Both the position numbers and the translations under genes were made by a program. The notes beneath the pieces are model-generated. The model made no database searches. It worked only from the letters and a program-made list of their open reading frames with translations, and was not told where the DNA came from. Source: a bacterium (GTDB taxonomy: Bacteria > Patescibacteriota > Patescibacteriia > SG8-24). Taken from it: a stretch of DNA of 56,591 bases. This document shows, one piece after another, positions 2,937 to 11,122 of the stretch; the first letter of the stretch is position 1; each line of letters opens with the position of its first letter. The stretch covers positions 1 to 56,591 of the forward strand of contig JAHFIV010000003.1 in assembly GCA_023246225.1 (NCBI GenBank), written 5' to 3'.

Positions 2937-3974
2937 TCATTGCAGATGAGCGGCGTTCTTCTCGCAGCCACGATGAATGATTTTCTCTCTCATCGTATGA
3001 GAAAGTGCCGAGGCTCGGCAATGACAAGTGAGACCGAGATACGATGGGAGATTCTTTTCGTCCACCTTTCGTAACATGCGTCGTTTTGTTGTTGTTCGAA
3101 GAATACGAAAATTCGGAAAACAGATGTACCCAAGAAAATCAACGCCCCGGTGGTACCGTTTTAAGATGATCTTTTTCGGATGGAGAGAAAGACGGAGGCG
3201 GGTTTCAAGAAATTCCCCTATAACAGGGAGCAGCTTCTCTAAGAACGCGCGATCGTGGTGGAGCAAAACAAAATCATCGCAATACCGCACATACTGTCGC
3301 ATAACGATATAATGCTTCACGAACTGATCGAGTTCATTCAAATACACATTCGCAAAAAGCTGCGAGGTGAGGTTGCCGAGAGGAAACCCTCCATCAGAAA
3401 AACTTCTTACGACATCAGCGATAAGTTCCAGCGTTTTCTGGTCGTGGATGGTCCGACCGATTATTGAGAGCAAAATTTCCTGATCGACCGAGGCAAAAAA
3501 TTTCGCGATATCGAGCTTAAGTACCCAAACCGTTTTCGTATTATTTCTCGAAAGTTTCCACGCCATCCTCGAAAAACGATCGACCGCACGATGAGTCCCC
3601 TTTCTCTTACGACATGACCATGAATCAAAAATGAATTGCCGCTCAAAGAAAGGCTCGATGACGCGGACGATAGCATGGTGAAGTAAACGATCCGCCACTG
3701 AGGCCTTATGTATCTGGCGACGTTTTGGATCGTGCACAACAAAAGCTTCGTAACTCCCATGCTGATACGTGCCGCCACGAAGTTGGTCATAAAGCTTGAA
3801 GATGTTATCTTCAAGTTTCAATGCAAACTCCTGCATGTCACGTCGTCTCATTTTTCCTCGCTGGAACTCATTCCATGCCGCAAACAAATTCTCTAATGAA
3901 ATAATCCGTTCAAAAATTGTTTTATGAATACTCTGACCCCCCCCGATGCAACTTTGTCCCTTCCGATTTTCCAT
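2937..3974 (-). CDS. Reverse transcriptase of a diversity-generating retroelement (start uncertain; ORF open to 4019)
   Basis: FERIISLENLFAAWNEFQRGKMRRRDMQEFALKLEDNIFKL, KASVADRLLHHAIVRVIEPFFERQFIFDSWSCRKRKGTHRAV, KLDIAKFFASVD, GGFPLGNLTSQLFANVYLNELDQFVKH, RYCDDFVLL catalytic motif, GVDFLGYICFPNFRILR; adjacent TR and two VRs. Confidence 0.95.
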   Translation of the reverse strand: MENRKGQSCIGGGQSIHKTIFERIISLENLFAAWNEFQRGKMRRRDMQEFALKLEDNIFKLYDQLRGGTYQHGSYEAFVVHDPKRRQIHKASVADRLLHHAIVRVIEPFFERQFIFDSWSCRKRKGTHRAVDRFSRMAWKLSRNNTKTVWVLKLDIAKFFASVDQEILLSIIGRTIHDQKTLELIADVVRSFSDGGFPLGNLTSQLFANVYLNELDQFVKHYIVMRQYVRYCDDFVLLHHDRAFLEKLLPVIGEFLETRLRLSLHPKKIILKRYHRGVDFLGYICFPNFRILRTTTKRRMLRKVDEKNLPSYLGLTCHCRASALSHTMREKIIHRGCEKNAAHLQ

Positions 3975-4313
3975 ACTTTCTATGGCTTTCTCCGCCGGCT
4001 TGCGGTAGTACTGGACCATGTTCCCAAAAAATCACGCTACACTCTCGGCGCAAAGATTGATACCACGTCACTCGACGTTTTCTAACTCATCCTCAGAGCC
4101 AACCAGGCACGTGGTGAACAACGTCTCGCATTGCTCCACGAAACAAGCGTCGCGCTCGATCTTCTCAAAATCCTCATCCGCCTCGCAAAAGACACGAAAT
4201 CGCTCTCAGAAACACACTACATCTTGCTCCAAGAACCGCTCCAGAAAACCGGAAAAATGCTCGGCGGATGGATAAAAAATCCAGAGGCTTCACGAACAAA
4301 GAATCCCGCGTGA
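3924..4313 (+). pseudogene. avd: Avd-like four-helix-bundle DGR accessory protein, interrupted by in-frame TAA at 4083-4085
   Basis: Hand translation from ATG 3924: MNTLTPPDATLSLPIFHTFYGFLRRLAVVLDHVPKKSRYTLGAKIDTTSLDVF*LILRANQARGEQRLALLHETSVALDLLKILIRLAKDTKSLSETHYILLQEPLQKTGKMLGGWIKNPEASRTKNPA*; pattern typical of Avd/four-helix-bundle proteins on both sides of the stop. Confidence 0.85.
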
Positions 4314-4326: not shown

Positions 4327-4330
4327 GCGA

Positions 4331-4444
4331 GAGACGATCGAGAGGACGGAAACCGATGTTCTCGTTCCGGTTGTCGGCGTCGTTCCAGTTGACGTTCGAG
4401 AGACCACCGTTGTCCGAGTTCCCACCGTAGAGACGGTTCCGGCT
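4331..4444 (-). other. DGR template repeat (TR)
   Basis: Sense strand reads R N R L Y G G N S D N G G L S N V N W N D A D N R N E N I G F R P L; nine AAC codons; near-identical to VR1 and VR2 except at A positions. Confidence 0.96.
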
Positions 4445-4681: not shown

Positions 4682-7498
4682 CTATTTTTTTGAAGAGAAA
4701 CGACCGAGAGGACGGAAACCGATGCGCTCGTAACGGTCGCCGGCGTCGCGCCAGTCGACGCCCGAGAGACCACCGAAGACCGAGTACCCACCGCAGAGAC
4801 GGCTCCGGCTGTCATATACGTCTTCAAACCACTCATACGTATCGGTGTTTCCCCATTCGGGATACAACGCATTGCCAAGATAATTGTTGTCAATCGCTCG
4901 CGGCAAATGAAACGCCTCGACTGGAATGCCGATCGCATGAGCAAGAGCACTTCGAAGCGCCGGTTGCTCCAAATCTTGAGGACTCAAATTAAAACGCGAA
5001 CCAGGAATTTTGTAATTCTGAACGAACTGTCTATTTCGAAAATCTGCAAGTACAGGTTCAAAAATATCATCAGTATATCGTTGATCGCCATTTTGATACT
5101 GTGGCTTACGGCGTGTATCTACAAGAAGCCATGCGCCAGAAAGTTTGGCAGCGTCAGGTGGAAGTTTCCCCGTCTTTATCGCGTCAAAAAACTCAATCCC
5201 GTATTGCTCTCCAGGAGTAAATTTTTTACCGGGTTTATTTTTCCAACCAGGAAAATTGCTGTCTTCCTTCATTTCTACCGCGGGCACAAAATGCAACTCA
5301 AACCCTTTTTCTTTCCATTCTTTATACTTTTCTGGAGTGGCCTCTGGAGGGAGTGGTGGCACTTCGATCTCTGCGCCAAAAAACTTTTTAATCGTTTCGC
5401 GCTCGCGGTTTATGAGTTCGCGGAATTCTCCTCGGGATTCATGGCCTTCGATACGACGCCGTGCTTCAGGCGGTAGTTTCCCCATGTCAAGCCCATCGAG
5501 AATCGCTTGAGGATCCACGGCCTCCCATGCAAGAAATTGCTCCACGGAAACCAAACGAGTTTTCTCCTTGCGTGCATCCTCCGAATGCACGACGAACTCC
5601 CCTGCGTCAGTGCGTCCAAGCACACGCCAACGCTTCGCCTGTGCACCAGAACCCTCGATACGACTCGCGTCGACCGGCGCTTCCGCGGTCCCCTCGATTG
5701 TATACTTCACGCTTTTCCCTTTAATCACCGCATTACCGTCGGTGATTTTCGGGGTGATCAATTCCTCATAGCGAACACGCGGAGAAAAAAGTCCGATTTC
5801 GCGAGGAGTAAGGACATGGAACTCTGCTTCGGGCTTTTTCTCTCGCGCATCTACCTTTTTGCCAAGCAAGTTAAAATGACCAAAAAAATCTCGCACAAGT
5901 TCGGCATCCGCTTGTGTAATGTCAGCTTCTGCAAGTTTTGCCTCTATTTTTTCTACGAGAAGCTCTTCGAGCGAACCGGTGTATCCTTCCTCAGCAGCAC
6001 GATGAAGCCAGCCGAGGACGACGCCTGGATCCAGCACAAACTTTGCAAGAAATTGCGCCTCTCCCCTATCCTTCAGCACGGTTTCTTGACGAGAAAGACT
6101 CTTGTAGAGCTCCGACAATCCACTCGCGAATCGCCAAACCGCGCCGCCTTTTTTCGGATCCTCATCGAGTTCCCGAATTTTCTTTTTGCCCTCGACACGA
6201 TATTTCCACGCAGGTGAAAGTTCGTCGGTTGCAAAACGAAGACGACGATTCTTGTCCATGAGCGCAGCGAGCATCGCTTCGTAAAGTTCAGGGTTGTTTT
6301 CGCTCTGTTCGGGATAAGGAACGGTCACCGCAGCACCAAATTCTCTTCTCACCGCTACATCGATCGGTTCACGGTCATATCGATCAGAGGATGGGTTACC
6401 GGCCGCCACAAAAAGATAGTTGGGCTGCACATACTGCTCGCCGATGAGCGGAAGGCTCACTTTGTGCCCTGGACGAACACCGGAAACCGTTTTAATGATT
6501 TCCATCTGCACTGCACGCTCGCGTTCATTGAACTCGTCATCAAAATATAAGCCGCCTTGATGACGCGGCTTAACGTCTGCACTCGTTTCTTTGCCGGTCA
6601 GCGCCTGTGCGAGCGCTTTAAAATCAAGTTGAGTCACCATCCCCTCGCCCACACCCTGCTTCACGAGAGAATCTTGCAACCGCGTCGATGGACCACCTTG
6701 CGCCCTGAACGGTTCCATGCCCGTGAGAGACTTCGCGGTCGCCCGCACAAGTGTCGACTTACCTGTCCCCGACTCGCCAAGGAGAAGTACCGGGCGACCG
6801 GTAAGTGCGACGGTTTCGATCTGCTCGAGTATGTCACGACGGCTCGGAAGCCACATGAATCCCTGTGACTCAAATTCAGCGCTGTACCCGGACACGCGCT
6901 CATAGGAAGCCTGGGCAGCGAGGAGAGGAAATTCTGCAAGCATCTCCGTCATATCCCTACGCGCCTTGGGTAACTCGCGAGTAATCTTTTGATACGCAAA
7001 CTTATCCATCTCGCTCACCCGACCGCCCCGCTGTTCGAAGAGTCGACGGCTCGCTGCGTCAAAATCCTCCTCGAGACCACGAACATGCTCACGCAGCGCG
7101 CGAAATTTCTCATAGCTCCCGTTCATCAATTTTTTCTCCTCAGCGTGTCGATCGATTTCAGCAAGGTACGTCGCCTTGGTCTCCGGATCGTTGTACAGCG
7201 AGAGGAAAAACCCTAGTTTCTGATTATCTTTTTCTTCATTTTCGGCGAGGTTCTCTTTGCTCCCCGCATGCGCAACATCGGATTTCACTTCTTGAAACAT
7301 GCTCCACAACATTTCTGCGCGGTGTGCTGGCGAAAGAAAGTCTGCGGGAGTGGCGGCTGATTCTTTCCCCGGAACGATATGACGCTGTTCCAAAAAGAAA
7401 CCGATCGGATCAGCAGCAAGCTCATCTCTGTGCTCGACCATGTGGCCAAGTCCTTTTTCGGATTGTTCACTAGACGATCTCTGTTCAGACATACTCAT
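4682..7498 (-). CDS. MoxR/AAA_5-type ATPase with DGR-diversified C-terminal domain (VR1)
   Basis: P-loop LLLGESGTGKSTLVRA, Walker B-like GGLYFDDEFNE, VAAGNPSSDRYDREPIDVAVRREF; C-terminus ...SRLCGGYSVFGGLSGVDWRDAGDRYERIGFRPLGRFSSKK carries VR1. Confidence 0.93.
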   Translation of the reverse strand: MSMSEQRSSSEQSEKGLGHMVEHRDELAADPIGFFLEQRHIVPGKESAATPADFLSPAHRAEMLWSMFQEVKSDVAHAGSKENLAENEEKDNQKLGFFLSLYNDPETKATYLAEIDRHAEEKKLMNGSYEKFRALREHVRGLEEDFDAASRRLFEQRGGRVSEMDKFAYQKITRELPKARRDMTEMLAEFPLLAAQASYERVSGYSAEFESQGFMWLPSRRDILEQIETVALTGRPVLLLGESGTGKSTLVRATAKSLTGMEPFRAQGGPSTRLQDSLVKQGVGEGMVTQLDFKALAQALTGKETSADVKPRHQGGLYFDDEFNERERAVQMEIIKTVSGVRPGHKVSLPLIGEQYVQPNYLFVAAGNPSSDRYDREPIDVAVRREFGAAVTVPYPEQSENNPELYEAMLAALMDKNRRLRFATDELSPAWKYRVEGKKKIRELDEDPKKGGAVWRFASGLSELYKSLSRQETVLKDRGEAQFLAKFVLDPGVVLGWLHRAAEEGYTGSLEELLVEKIEAKLAEADITQADAELVRDFFGHFNLLGKKVDAREKKPEAEFHVLTPREIGLFSPRVRYEELITPKITDGNAVIKGKSVKYTIEGTAEAPVDASRIEGSGAQAKRWRVLGRTDAGEFVVHSEDARKEKTRLVSVEQFLAWEAVDPQAILDGLDMGKLPPEARRRIEGHESRGEFRELINRERETIKKFFGAEIEVPPLPPEATPEKYKEWKEKGFELHFVPAVEMKEDSNFPGWKNKPGKKFTPGEQYGIEFFDAIKTGKLPPDAAKLSGAWLLVDTRRKPQYQNGDQRYTDDIFEPVLADFRNRQFVQNYKIPGSRFNLSPQDLEQPALRSALAHAIGIPVEAFHLPRAIDNNYLGNALYPEWGNTDTYEWFEDVYDSRSRLCGGYSVFGGLSGVDWRDAGDRYERIGFRPLGRFSSKK
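4697..4810 (-). other. DGR variable repeat VR1
   Basis: Ungapped alignment to TR (offset 366); by hand count 16 substitutions at TR adenines plus one A-site change shared with VR2 near the 3' end; one internal non-A mismatch (cgg>cgt). Confidence 0.95.
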
Positions 7499-7554
7499 GC
7501 TTGAAGTACGAAATTTGATCGGACCAAAGGTCAAAAGACCGAAGGCCAAAGAAC

Positions 7555-8538
7555 CTATTTTTTTGAAGAGAAACGACCGAGAGGACGGAAACCGACGTCC
7601 TCGTGCCGGCCGGCGGCGCCGACCCAGTAGACGTACGAGAGACCACCGCCGTCCGAGTTCCCACCGTAGAGACGGTCCCGGCTATCGGCTGTTTTGTCTT
7701 TGAGCCATTCAAGAGTGGTGGTGTTTCCCCATTCAGGCATATGCATGTGCATGAGGAGACTGTTTTCAATTGCGTAGGGAAGGTCGAGGTCTTTGACGTT
7801 CACGCCTAAGGACGCAGCAAGCGCGGTCTGTACCTCTGGCTTTTCAAAATCAGAGCCGCGGATGCCGAAACGGGACTTGGGGTTGGGAACAGCATCGTAG
7901 GGCTCAATGACGGGGTTTGCTCCTCTGCGGAGCGTCTCAAGCGCTTTGCCGATCACCTCATCGTTTGGATATATTTGTGCGCCATTGTCATAGTTCGGTT
8001 TTTGCCTGGTATCGACAAGCATCCATCCCCCAGGGAGTTCGCTGTGGATTTCTTCAGGACCTTTTTCTGGTTTCTTCGTCCATCCAGGGAGCTCTTTCCA
8101 CTTTTTTTTGCCATCTGGGCCGGTTTCACTGAGAACAACGGGGGGAAGATAGTGGAGTTCAAACCCTTTTTCTTTCCATTCCTTGTACTTTTCTGGAGTG
8201 ATCTCTTGTGGGAGTGGCGGAATTTCGATCTCTTTGCCGAAAAGGGTTTTGAGTGCTTCTTGCTCGCGATTGATGAGTTCACGGAATTCAGGACCGGTCT
8301 CCGCAGCCTCCTTCACTTCGATCATCCCCTTCATTTCATCGACCAGGTTCTTAAAACGAAGCTCCTCGGCGGGGGTCGAGGCGCGACTTATGATTTTATC
8401 GCGAAGTGTGGCGATTTCTTCGGCACGCTTCGTGAGTGCAACGGTTTCATCAGCCGACCAGTCGAGTGGAACTGAGGGCTCCGTCGACGGCACCATTCTC
8501 GCTGGCTCCCGCGTCGGTTGTCCTTCGGGATGTGGCAT
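7555..8538 (-). CDS. DGR target protein with C-terminal variable domain (VR2), paralogous to the C-terminal domain of the MoxR protein
   Basis: Shares FRELINRE..., PPLPxExTPEKYKEWKEKGFELH, LVDTRxKPxYxNG, PEWGNT and SRxRLxGG...GFRPLGRFSSKK with the MoxR protein C-terminus. Confidence 0.92.
   Translation of the reverse strand: MPHPEGQPTREPARMVPSTEPSVPLDWSADETVALTKRAEEIATLRDKIISRASTPAEELRFKNLVDEMKGMIEVKEAAETGPEFRELINREQEALKTLFGKEIEIPPLPQEITPEKYKEWKEKGFELHYLPPVVLSETGPDGKKKWKELPGWTKKPEKGPEEIHSELPGGWMLVDTRQKPNYDNGAQIYPNDEVIGKALETLRRGANPVIEPYDAVPNPKSRFGIRGSDFEKPEVQTALAASLGVNVKDLDLPYAIENSLLMHMHMPEWGNTTTLEWLKDKTADSRDRLYGGNSDGGGLSYVYWVGAAGRHEDVGFRPLGRFSSKK
7570..7683 (-). other. DGR variable repeat VR2
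   Basis: Ungapped alignment to TR (offset 3239); by hand count 14 substitutions, all at TR adenines, plus the one A-site change shared with VR1. Confidence 0.95.
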
Positions 8539-8539
8539 A

Positions 8540-11122
8540 TTATTTTTTCTTCGGTTTTCCTTTCACGCGCGCAGGGTAGAGCGCCTGAAAAACCGCGATG
8601 GTATCCGCAGCGACCGCAGGTGCGAGTGTACCGAGTGTTTCGATAACAGAAGCGTTGGGAGCATAGATCGCTTTGATCGGCTTCGCCGCGGCGGTCATAC
8701 CATAACCGTACACAACGGTACCAGCTTCACGAAGCTCTCGCAAAGCGGTTTTCGTTGCCGAAGGATTATTCGAACCACCGTCGAGGAACGCCGCAACGAA
8801 CGCGATCGGTGGCTGTTCGCCTGGTTTATGCTGCGTTTTATCCCAAACCCCACGCTCGCTCAAAATCTTTGTCTTGATCTCCGCGAGCGCCGCATGATCT
8901 GGCGTGCCGCCACCCGCGGTGCGCATAAGGGCTTGGTACAGCGCGAACTGTTCTTTTGGTCCCCATGTTCCCGCAAGCGGAAGGTCGGTCGAGACGTCGC
9001 CGTGGATACTGGTAAGCTGAATACGAATAGGGAGCGGAGCGGTGAGACGACCCTGCGACTGCCGAGAAAGAAACGCGCACTGCATGAGCGAATCCACATA
9101 GACCATCACGGCGTCACGTTGGAGATCGGCTTTGACACGGCCGGACTCGGGGTCGATTTCAGACATGGAACCAGAGAGGTCGGCCATCAGATAGACATCG
9201 ATGCCACCGAAAAGTTTTTGTCTTTTTTCGCGCGTACGGATGCGCTCAAAGCCAGACACATCACGCTCGCCAGCCTTGTGGTCGATCATTGCGAGCGCGG
9301 GATCGGTAAGTTCGTCGCCTTCGCTCATTCTGACCGGTCCTTGGTACTCACGCTTTTCTCCTTTACGACTCTGGACAAGCTGACGCCACGCCGCGATCAG
9401 TTTTTGCTGAATGCGCTCTCCTTTTTCGTCTTTCATTTCGCGCACGCGCTGAAACATCTCGCGAACTTCTTTCGCTTGCTGTTCCGAGCAACCGGCTTCG
9501 CGCGCGAACGTTTCGGTGACGCGTGCTTCGCTTGTCTTATTTTCTTCGCGCGCATTGTCTTCGGATCGCTCAAGAGATTCGATCAATTCTTCAAGATCCT
9601 CATCGCTCATGATCTCCGCTTCTTGTTCGCCATAGTCCCCCTCACCGGCAGGTTCTTGTTCTTCGTCCGGCCGTTCTTCGTCGAGCGTTGGGTCGTCCTT
9701 CGGTGTCGCGTCAGGATGGAACCATTGTCCAGTATCAGCATCATACACTTCGAGCCAGGCGTGACCGGTACCGCTCGTCATCATCGCCTTCTCAGCCGAC
9801 GCAGCCTTTTTGACATAATGACCGGTCGCGAGACGGCACGGAATGCCCGCTTTCCGAAGTACCGCCGCACCGACAGTGTTCGCCACATCGCAATCGGCTT
9901 TCTTCTCTTGCCAAATGCGTTCGAAGTATGCCGCAGGGTCCGCACGATAGACTGCGTTCATGCTGCTGTCGTTCGAGTAGTCCAAATGCTCACGCACGAC
10001 TTTGAGAAGAAATCTTGCGCGGCCGGCGGCAGAAAGTTTTGTCGCCGCAAGCTCGGTAATTTTTTGTTCGAGCTCAGTAGGGAGACGCGCAGCGATTTTT
10101 TTATCAATTTCCGTTGGCGGCATTTGCGGTGGTGTGCCTTCCTCGCGTTTTCCTATATTGAGACTATAACTAAAAACTCCATCGGCATCGATTTGGAGAT
10201 GAACGTTACCGTTGCCGTCTTCGGTGAGATGGATAGCGTCCGGTGGTGCCGAGGTTTGGAGGGTTCGCGTGTTCACGCTCCAGCCATACGGAACTGGGAT
10301 CGCAATCTTCTGCCGACCACGCACTCTTCCTGTAAGGAGTCGAGAAGAAAGTGTCTCGATTTCCTGCTCGACGAGCGGTTTCTCAACAGTCGGCGCCTTT
10401 TTCCATTTCAGCTCTGCCTCGTCCCATTCGCTGTACAAATTTTGTCGAAAATAACCACCATGAAAAGGAGTGACGGTAAAGTAGGCCTTTGATTCGCCTT
10501 TTTCTTTTTCTTTGGAGAGCTCATCCATCGACGGCGCAAACTCGTCGGTTTCTGGAGGAGGGAGGGAGTCGTCCTGCGGTGCAGGAACGGATTCTTGTTG
10601 TTCTGCATCCGTTTGTTCGGGTTGTTCTGTAGATTCTTTTTGCGCTTCTTCTTCGGGTTCGGGTGGGGATACATCCTGATCGGCGAGCCATTCAACCATT
10701 GAAGAAAGGTGATTTTTCCAAATGTCCACCTTCGTTGCAAATGGCACGTCGTGGGAGGTGAGCAGCTCAAGCGCATTCGCCGGCCCTTCGCTTGTAGCGA
10801 TTGTTTTGAGTCCCTCGAGAAAATCATGCGCCACTGGATCGGCATCGACAGCGGGCACAGCGTTCGGAGTTTCAAGAGCAGCGGCAACTGCGCGAAGAAA
10901 CGCATCAACTCGCGGCAAACCGGTCTCTTTCATTTTTGGCGGCTTGCCGAGCATCGCCGACTCCACAAGTTCACGAAACGGTTTTGGCACCTCCTTTTTC
11001 CATGTCCGATACGCCATCGCCTGTTCGCGGGTATGTATCGCAAAAGCCGGCCTCTCTTGCTCAGAAGTTTCGCGATGCTCCAGCGAAGGCTCGGGCGGTG
11101 ATGTTGGTGAACGATTCGGCAT
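8540..11122 (-). CDS. Transglutaminase-like + von Willebrand factor A (vWA) domain protein
   Basis: Transglutaminase triad context KKADCDVANTVGAAVLRKAGIPCRLATGHY / GHAWLEVYDADTGQWFHPDATP; MIDAS DLSGSMSEID; start codon of the next gene follows its stop with one intervening base. Confidence 0.9.
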   Translation of the reverse strand: MPNRSPTSPPEPSLEHRETSEQERPAFAIHTREQAMAYRTWKKEVPKPFRELVESAMLGKPPKMKETGLPRVDAFLRAVAAALETPNAVPAVDADPVAHDFLEGLKTIATSEGPANALELLTSHDVPFATKVDIWKNHLSSMVEWLADQDVSPPEPEEEAQKESTEQPEQTDAEQQESVPAPQDDSLPPPETDEFAPSMDELSKEKEKGESKAYFTVTPFHGGYFRQNLYSEWDEAELKWKKAPTVEKPLVEQEIETLSSRLLTGRVRGRQKIAIPVPYGWSVNTRTLQTSAPPDAIHLTEDGNGNVHLQIDADGVFSYSLNIGKREEGTPPQMPPTEIDKKIAARLPTELEQKITELAATKLSAAGRARFLLKVVREHLDYSNDSSMNAVYRADPAAYFERIWQEKKADCDVANTVGAAVLRKAGIPCRLATGHYVKKAASAEKAMMTSGTGHAWLEVYDADTGQWFHPDATPKDDPTLDEERPDEEQEPAGEGDYGEQEAEIMSDEDLEELIESLERSEDNAREENKTSEARVTETFAREAGCSEQQAKEVREMFQRVREMKDEKGERIQQKLIAAWRQLVQSRKGEKREYQGPVRMSEGDELTDPALAMIDHKAGERDVSGFERIRTREKRQKLFGGIDVYLMADLSGSMSEIDPESGRVKADLQRDAVMVYVDSLMQCAFLSRQSQGRLTAPLPIRIQLTSIHGDVSTDLPLAGTWGPKEQFALYQALMRTAGGGTPDHAALAEIKTKILSERGVWDKTQHKPGEQPPIAFVAAFLDGGSNNPSATKTALRELREAGTVVYGYGMTAAAKPIKAIYAPNASVIETLGTLAPAVAADTIAVFQALYPARVKGKPKKK

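Follow-up and report, generated by a model that had tools for sequence, protein, structure and literature searches.

Conflict systems in which a MoxR ATPase and a von Willebrand factor A (vWA) protein are coupled to a diversity-generating retroelement (DGR) have been described in multicellular bacteria (PMC7159879, PMC10907252). In the MoxR-vWA systems of Kaur et al. 2020, it is the vWA protein that bears the DGR domain, and VMAP in rare cases carries a transglutaminase (TG)-like peptidase (PMC7159879). DGRs are also enriched in the candidate phyla radiation (CPR)/Patescibacteria, where their targets are said to lack recognisable domains and to have an unresolved function (PMC8144416); CPR clade-2 DGR targets without recognisable domains were described by Roux et al. 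The commonest CPR DGR target architecture, according to the passage of PMC10907252 that cites Paul 2017, is a fusion of a CLec domain to an AAA ATPase. Here we analysed an operon on contig JAHFIV010000003.1 from a patescibacterium of the SG8-24 lineage (the window, 56,591 nucleotides, is the entire 56.6-kb contig of a 1.1-Mb genome), which encodes a protein with TG-like and vWA domains (TG-vWA), a free DGR target protein and an AAA ATPase. Our favoured reading, to which we give roughly an even chance, is that it specifies a MoxR-clade AAA ATPase and vWA machine with a retroelement-tuned recognition domain, the likely use of which is as an intracellular sensor-effector.

The three genes follow one another on the minus strand in the order TG-vWA, free target, ATPase (Table 1), and a single base (8539) separates the first two, just as an earlier note on this DNA had it. 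The variable C-termini of the ATPase and of the free protein, which that note had taken to be homologous, are 52% identical over about 250 residues (E 3e-61). An alternative start of the ATPase is possible at an ATG at residue 18. Downstream of the operon on the same strand, outside positions 4682-11122, the span of the earlier note, lie a template repeat (TR) and a reverse transcriptase (RT) gene. Over the two variable regions (VRs), 32 of the 35 mismatches to the TR fall on template adenines, which make up 22% of the TR (binomial P of 1e-9 for VR1 and 2e-9 for VR2 over the 116-nt core), and adenine changes at codon position 3 number zero. VR1 and VR2 are the only matches to the TR in the whole genome. 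Together, the TR, VRs and RT make up a DGR that has both the ATPase and the free protein as targets. This assignment stands despite the interruption of the Avd-like accessory gene (Table 1), because Avd is typical of DGRs and not universal among them.

Table 1. Positions of the operon genes and of the DGR elements in the window.
Feature	Position	Strand	Details
TG-vWA protein gene	8540-11122	minus	860 aa, ATG at 11122
TG-vWA domain order			N-terminal helices, beta-rich domain, transglutaminase-like domain, vWA domain with MIDAS-type motif
Free DGR target protein, variable C-terminus	7555-8538	minus	327 aa; open reading frame (ORF); carries VR2
MoxR-clade AAA_5 ATPase with variable C-terminal domain (predicted)	4682-7549	minus	955 aa from TTG
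ATPase variable domain	about residues 640-955
VR2	7568-7683	minus	3' end of free target gene; 15/16 TR mismatches at adenines
VR1	4695-4810	minus	3' end of ATPase gene; 17/19 TR mismatches at adenines
TR	4329-4444	minus	116-nt core
Avd-like accessory gene	3960-4298	plus (opposite RT)	in-frame TAA 4083-4085; 42% identity to relative's Avd
DGR-type RT	2937-4019	minus	360 aa; Pfam RVT_1 E 9e-21; LGxxxSQ, YCDD motifs

We then consider what the two larger proteins resemble. The ATPase is, as judged from its profile, a MoxR-clade AAA ATPase of the midasin/NorQ type: the first matches were midasin (E 2.5e-30), NorQ (6e-7) and CbbQ, Pfam AAA_5 was matched at E 2e-6, and Walker A (G258-K264), Walker B (D338-E339), the sensor N385 and the arginine R402 are invariant in 17 homologues. 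In the TG-vWA protein, Pfam detects Transglut_core (E 1e-13), and a transglutaminase-type triad, Cys411-His454-Asp471, is invariant across 24 homologues. With this triad and a fold match of the predicted structure to the transglutaminase domain of TgpA (E 3e-10 by Foldseek; mean pLDDT of the model 79), the domain belongs to the transglutaminase-like superfamily and its activity is predicted. Pfam missed the vWA domain. Evidence for it comes from a conserved DxSxS motif of the MIDAS type (D648-L-S-G-S652) and from the predicted structure, for which Foldseek returned the vWA domain of NorD from NorQD complexes (E 5e-11) and the MIDAS domain of midasin (Rea1; E 5e-9). The two proteins are independently nearest to the two halves of AAA-vWA machines, and therefore both match known partners. 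This agrees with the view in the earlier note that the ATPase is of a type that pairs with vWA proteins.

Single-protein scans returned no matches, but 59 loci emerged when GTDB genomes were searched with the TG-vWA alignment. The full-length matches were all in Patescibacteria or in bacteria placed among them, and in the rest the similarity lies mainly in the TG domain. In 24 loci (the window included and duplicates merged), the genes for TG-vWA and the ATPase stand side by side; some counts are limited by loci at contig ends. G140, where TG-vWA lies near a contig end and no ATPase was found, is an exception. Full-length TG-vWA is present in 13 of the 381 Patescibacteria genomes sampled for it. 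One of these (G278) has a 4-kb contig too short to judge, and in the 12 evaluable genomes a DGR RT adjoins the operon in 10, with G283 scored by an RT fragment only. The earlier note had named a lack of synteny between the vWA gene and the DGR targets as a refuting outcome, and this comparison did not refute it; the same operon does recur with DGRs in other Patescibacteria. For comparison, 134 of the 364 genomes sampled for RTs have an RT match of some kind. The operon was absent from 11 other genomes of the same order, and identity between operons is 22-37%. A viral or plasmid origin was also considered and rejected, as IMG/VR, phage and plasmid collections held no TG-vWA relative.

The position of the VRs differs between loci. 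In 8 of the 24 (the window, L064, L065, L068, L073, L085, L086 and L048), the ATPase gene carries a VR at its 3' end, and in other loci VRs are on separate genes. In the TG-vWA tree, ATPases with a VR occur in three clades that lie apart from one another, interspersed with DGR-free members, with the exact placement of the clades unsure where some deep branches are long. The 19 TR/VR pairs from 11 loci contain 364 mismatches in total, of which 347 are at TR adenines; of these 347, 329 affect codon positions 1 or 2. Judged from sequence comparison, TG-vWA and the ATPase are a conserved operon pair, and the DGR rewrites the C-terminal domains of both the ATPase and its free paralogue. Several side observations concern proteins related to parts of the operon. 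At L041-L051, VR proteins of the same family are found on their own. A homologue of the vWA part (645 aa) adjoins a DGR RT and an Avd at L151 (G267:C3:4896-8160), possibly a further variant. At L053:7272-13353, a vWA protein (619 aa) and a related ATPase (810 aa) are found with a 587-aa ORF, without TG or DGR. Long TG proteins, mostly of 1024-1095 aa (914 aa in L095), with no ATPase partner detected, are present at L087-L090 and L092-L095 in Levybacteria, Roizmanbacteria, Peregrinibacteria and others.

Other proteins may take the place of the DGR targets. TG-vWA and the ATPase occur with no DGR in view in L069, L070, L072, L077, L080, L082 and L083. At L080 (Gracilibacteria), three tandem leucine-rich-repeat proteins stand behind the pair (L080:14400-17329; LRR_6 E 1.5e-35). 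Between the TG-vWA of L067 and its counterparts in L061 and L065, identity is 58-61%. In the latter two loci, TG-vWA is followed by a VR target gene; L067 has at this position a tandem-repeat protein (L067:8728-9276, units of about 29-31 aa) whose gene is cut by the contig end. It starts with a short N-terminal stretch like that of free VR targets (E 3e-5 in a small comparison), followed by the tandem repeats. These loci suggest that the recognition module is swapped between lineages and the core kept.

How might such a machine work? In the mechanism we propose, the ATPase would form a NorQ/midasin-like ring displaying several copies of one variable domain, and the free variable proteins would contribute another specificity, or serve as a soluble sensor or decoy. 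A ligand bound at the variable face would alter the ATP-driven remodelling of the vWA domain, which in turn would switch the attached Cys-His-Asp TG-like domain, a possible peptidase or cross-linker, on or off. Recognition is probably cytoplasmic, since no component has a predicted membrane segment; simple hydropathy revealed neither a signal peptide nor a strong hydrophobic segment in the window proteins. The favoured use, modelled on what has been proposed for ternary MoxR-vWA systems (PMC7159879, PMC10907252), is that of an intracellular sensor-effector against invading elements; by this analogy, we judge a conflict role to stand at about even odds.

Several observations count against this reading. 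The machine does not need a DGR, because several relatives keep TG-vWA and the ATPase without one. No known defence gene was recognised in the operon, where PADLOC matched the RT and a generic P-loop only. The AlphaFold model of the variable protein (17-homologue alignment) had a pLDDT of 60 overall and of about 30 in the VR region, and neither Foldseek, the PDB profile, Pfam nor PHROGs gave a fold or family match for the variable domain. The C-type-lectin/FGE-like fold that the earlier note expected thus finds no support in these results, and neither does its opposite. We take the TR peptide (...GGxxxxGGLSxVxW...IGFRPL) to resemble FGE/CLec C-termini. Finally, Avd is interrupted in this assembly, and the window DGR copy may no longer diversify unless an Avd on another contig serves it. 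Relatives have an intact Avd in the same place, and the genome itself holds an intact one at a contig edge (G000:C20:18-332, L170). It also holds a second DGR-type RT, 54% identical and likewise at a contig edge (G000:C17:70-1005, L154/L166), with no TR/VR pair detectable at that locus. With a broken Avd in the window, an intact one on C20 and a second RT on C17, there are therefore three options: the window DGR may have stopped diversifying, it may receive help in trans, or the TAA may stem from an assembly error. The RT gene is itself split or truncated in L040, L046, L065 and L076, which suggests frequent DGR decay or assembly errors.

A broader form of the sensor-effector reading takes the swapped modules at face value. 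The operon would then be a modular immune-receptor machine, in which a core of an AAA ring and a TG-vWA protease is fitted with lineage-specific recognition modules (DGR domains carried by the ring, leucine-rich repeats or tandem repeats), giving intracellular, mutation-generated specificity with an NLR-like logic. We offer this tentatively, as clearly less probable than the sensor-effector reading in its plain form. If the sensor is truly exchangeable for leucine-rich-repeat or repeat proteins, the operon would provide a simple, naturally occurring platform for protein-triggered proteases that can be retargeted.

Two other explanations we regard as unlikely, and to a similar degree. In the first, the variable domains contact the host cell of the epibiont, and the ATPase, vWA and TG parts assemble or cross-link a surface structure. 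CPR bacteria are host-dependent, a role of their DGRs in host interaction has been proposed (PMC8867640; PMC10907252), and the TG structure closest to that of the window, from TgpA, is periplasmic, all of which would fit; the window proteins, however, carry none of the export features sought above, and the AAA ring that bears the variable domain is ATP-dependent and needs cytoplasmic ATP. In the second, the operon is a chaperone or maturation machine that remodels a housekeeping client as NorQD and CbbQO do, with the variable domain tuning the choice of client and no part in conflict. This would suit the closest solved machines (NorQD, midasin and CbbQ), which are maturation or assembly factors, and the many relatives without any DGR. 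A patchy distribution, with absence from the 11 same-order relatives, would however be unusual for a housekeeping function, as would the fast divergence between operons and the repeated association with DGRs. Chance adjacency, in which common CPR DGR targets landed beside, or became fused to, an unrelated operon, draws on the frequency of DGR RTs in the phylum and on the stand-alone VR proteins of the same family, and is very improbable given the RT adjoining the operon in 10 of the 12 evaluable genomes and the VR on the ATPase in 8 loci over three separated TG-vWA clades. The recurrence across the phylum of a DGR with an ATPase and an enzyme-bearing partner suggests an intracellular sensor-effector with changeable recognition, and the conserved ATPase-vWA-transglutaminase partner gives one set of CPR DGR targets a concrete, testable output.

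The earlier note had called the system undescribed, which overstates the case, as CPR CLec-AAA fusions (in the relevant passage of PMC10907252) and DGR-coupled MoxR-vWA systems (PMC7159879, PMC10907252) were already reported. What is apparently new is the TG-vWA partner, of which we found no mention for CPR in the literature consulted, the modular sensor, and the placing of the VR on the MoxR-type member of such a pair. The CPR CLec-AAA targets very likely include relatives of the window ATPase gene, and in both an AAA ATPase has a C-terminal DGR variable region; the summary of them in that passage of PMC10907252 mentions neither a TG-vWA partner nor a MoxR/midasin assignment. The nearest solved relatives of the ATPase and the vWA domain, NorQ-NorD, CbbQ-CbbO and midasin, have known maturation or assembly clients, and differ from the operon in having no DGR and no TG domain on the vWA protein. 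For the TG domain, the closest structure solved is that of TgpA from Pseudomonas aeruginosa, whose domain is periplasmic, whereas the window TG domain is fused to vWA in a protein for which no export signal is predicted.

Membership of the VMAP ternary systems (PMC7159879, PMC10907252) was considered and rejected: Pfam, NCBIfam and PADLOC gave no match to the VMAP family in the operon proteins, the MoxR N-terminal motifs WxhapG and PsWRxa are absent from the window ATPase, and the gene order is VMAP-MoxR-vWA in those systems, whereas TG-vWA comes first in the window. The position of the domains also differs. VMAP systems have the variable domain on their vWA protein and the peptidase on VMAP; in the window, the variable domain is found on the ATPase and a free protein, and the TG domain is part of the vWA protein. 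Common to both are a MoxR-clade ATPase (predicted for the window), a vWA protein, a DGR-diversified domain and a peptidase-type domain, and cytoplasmic sensing has been proposed for several VMAP systems. The hosts are multicellular bacteria in the one case and Patescibacteria in the other, and the operon would extend DGR-coupled MoxR-vWA systems, whose reported association is with multicellular bacteria, to single-celled, genome-reduced ones.
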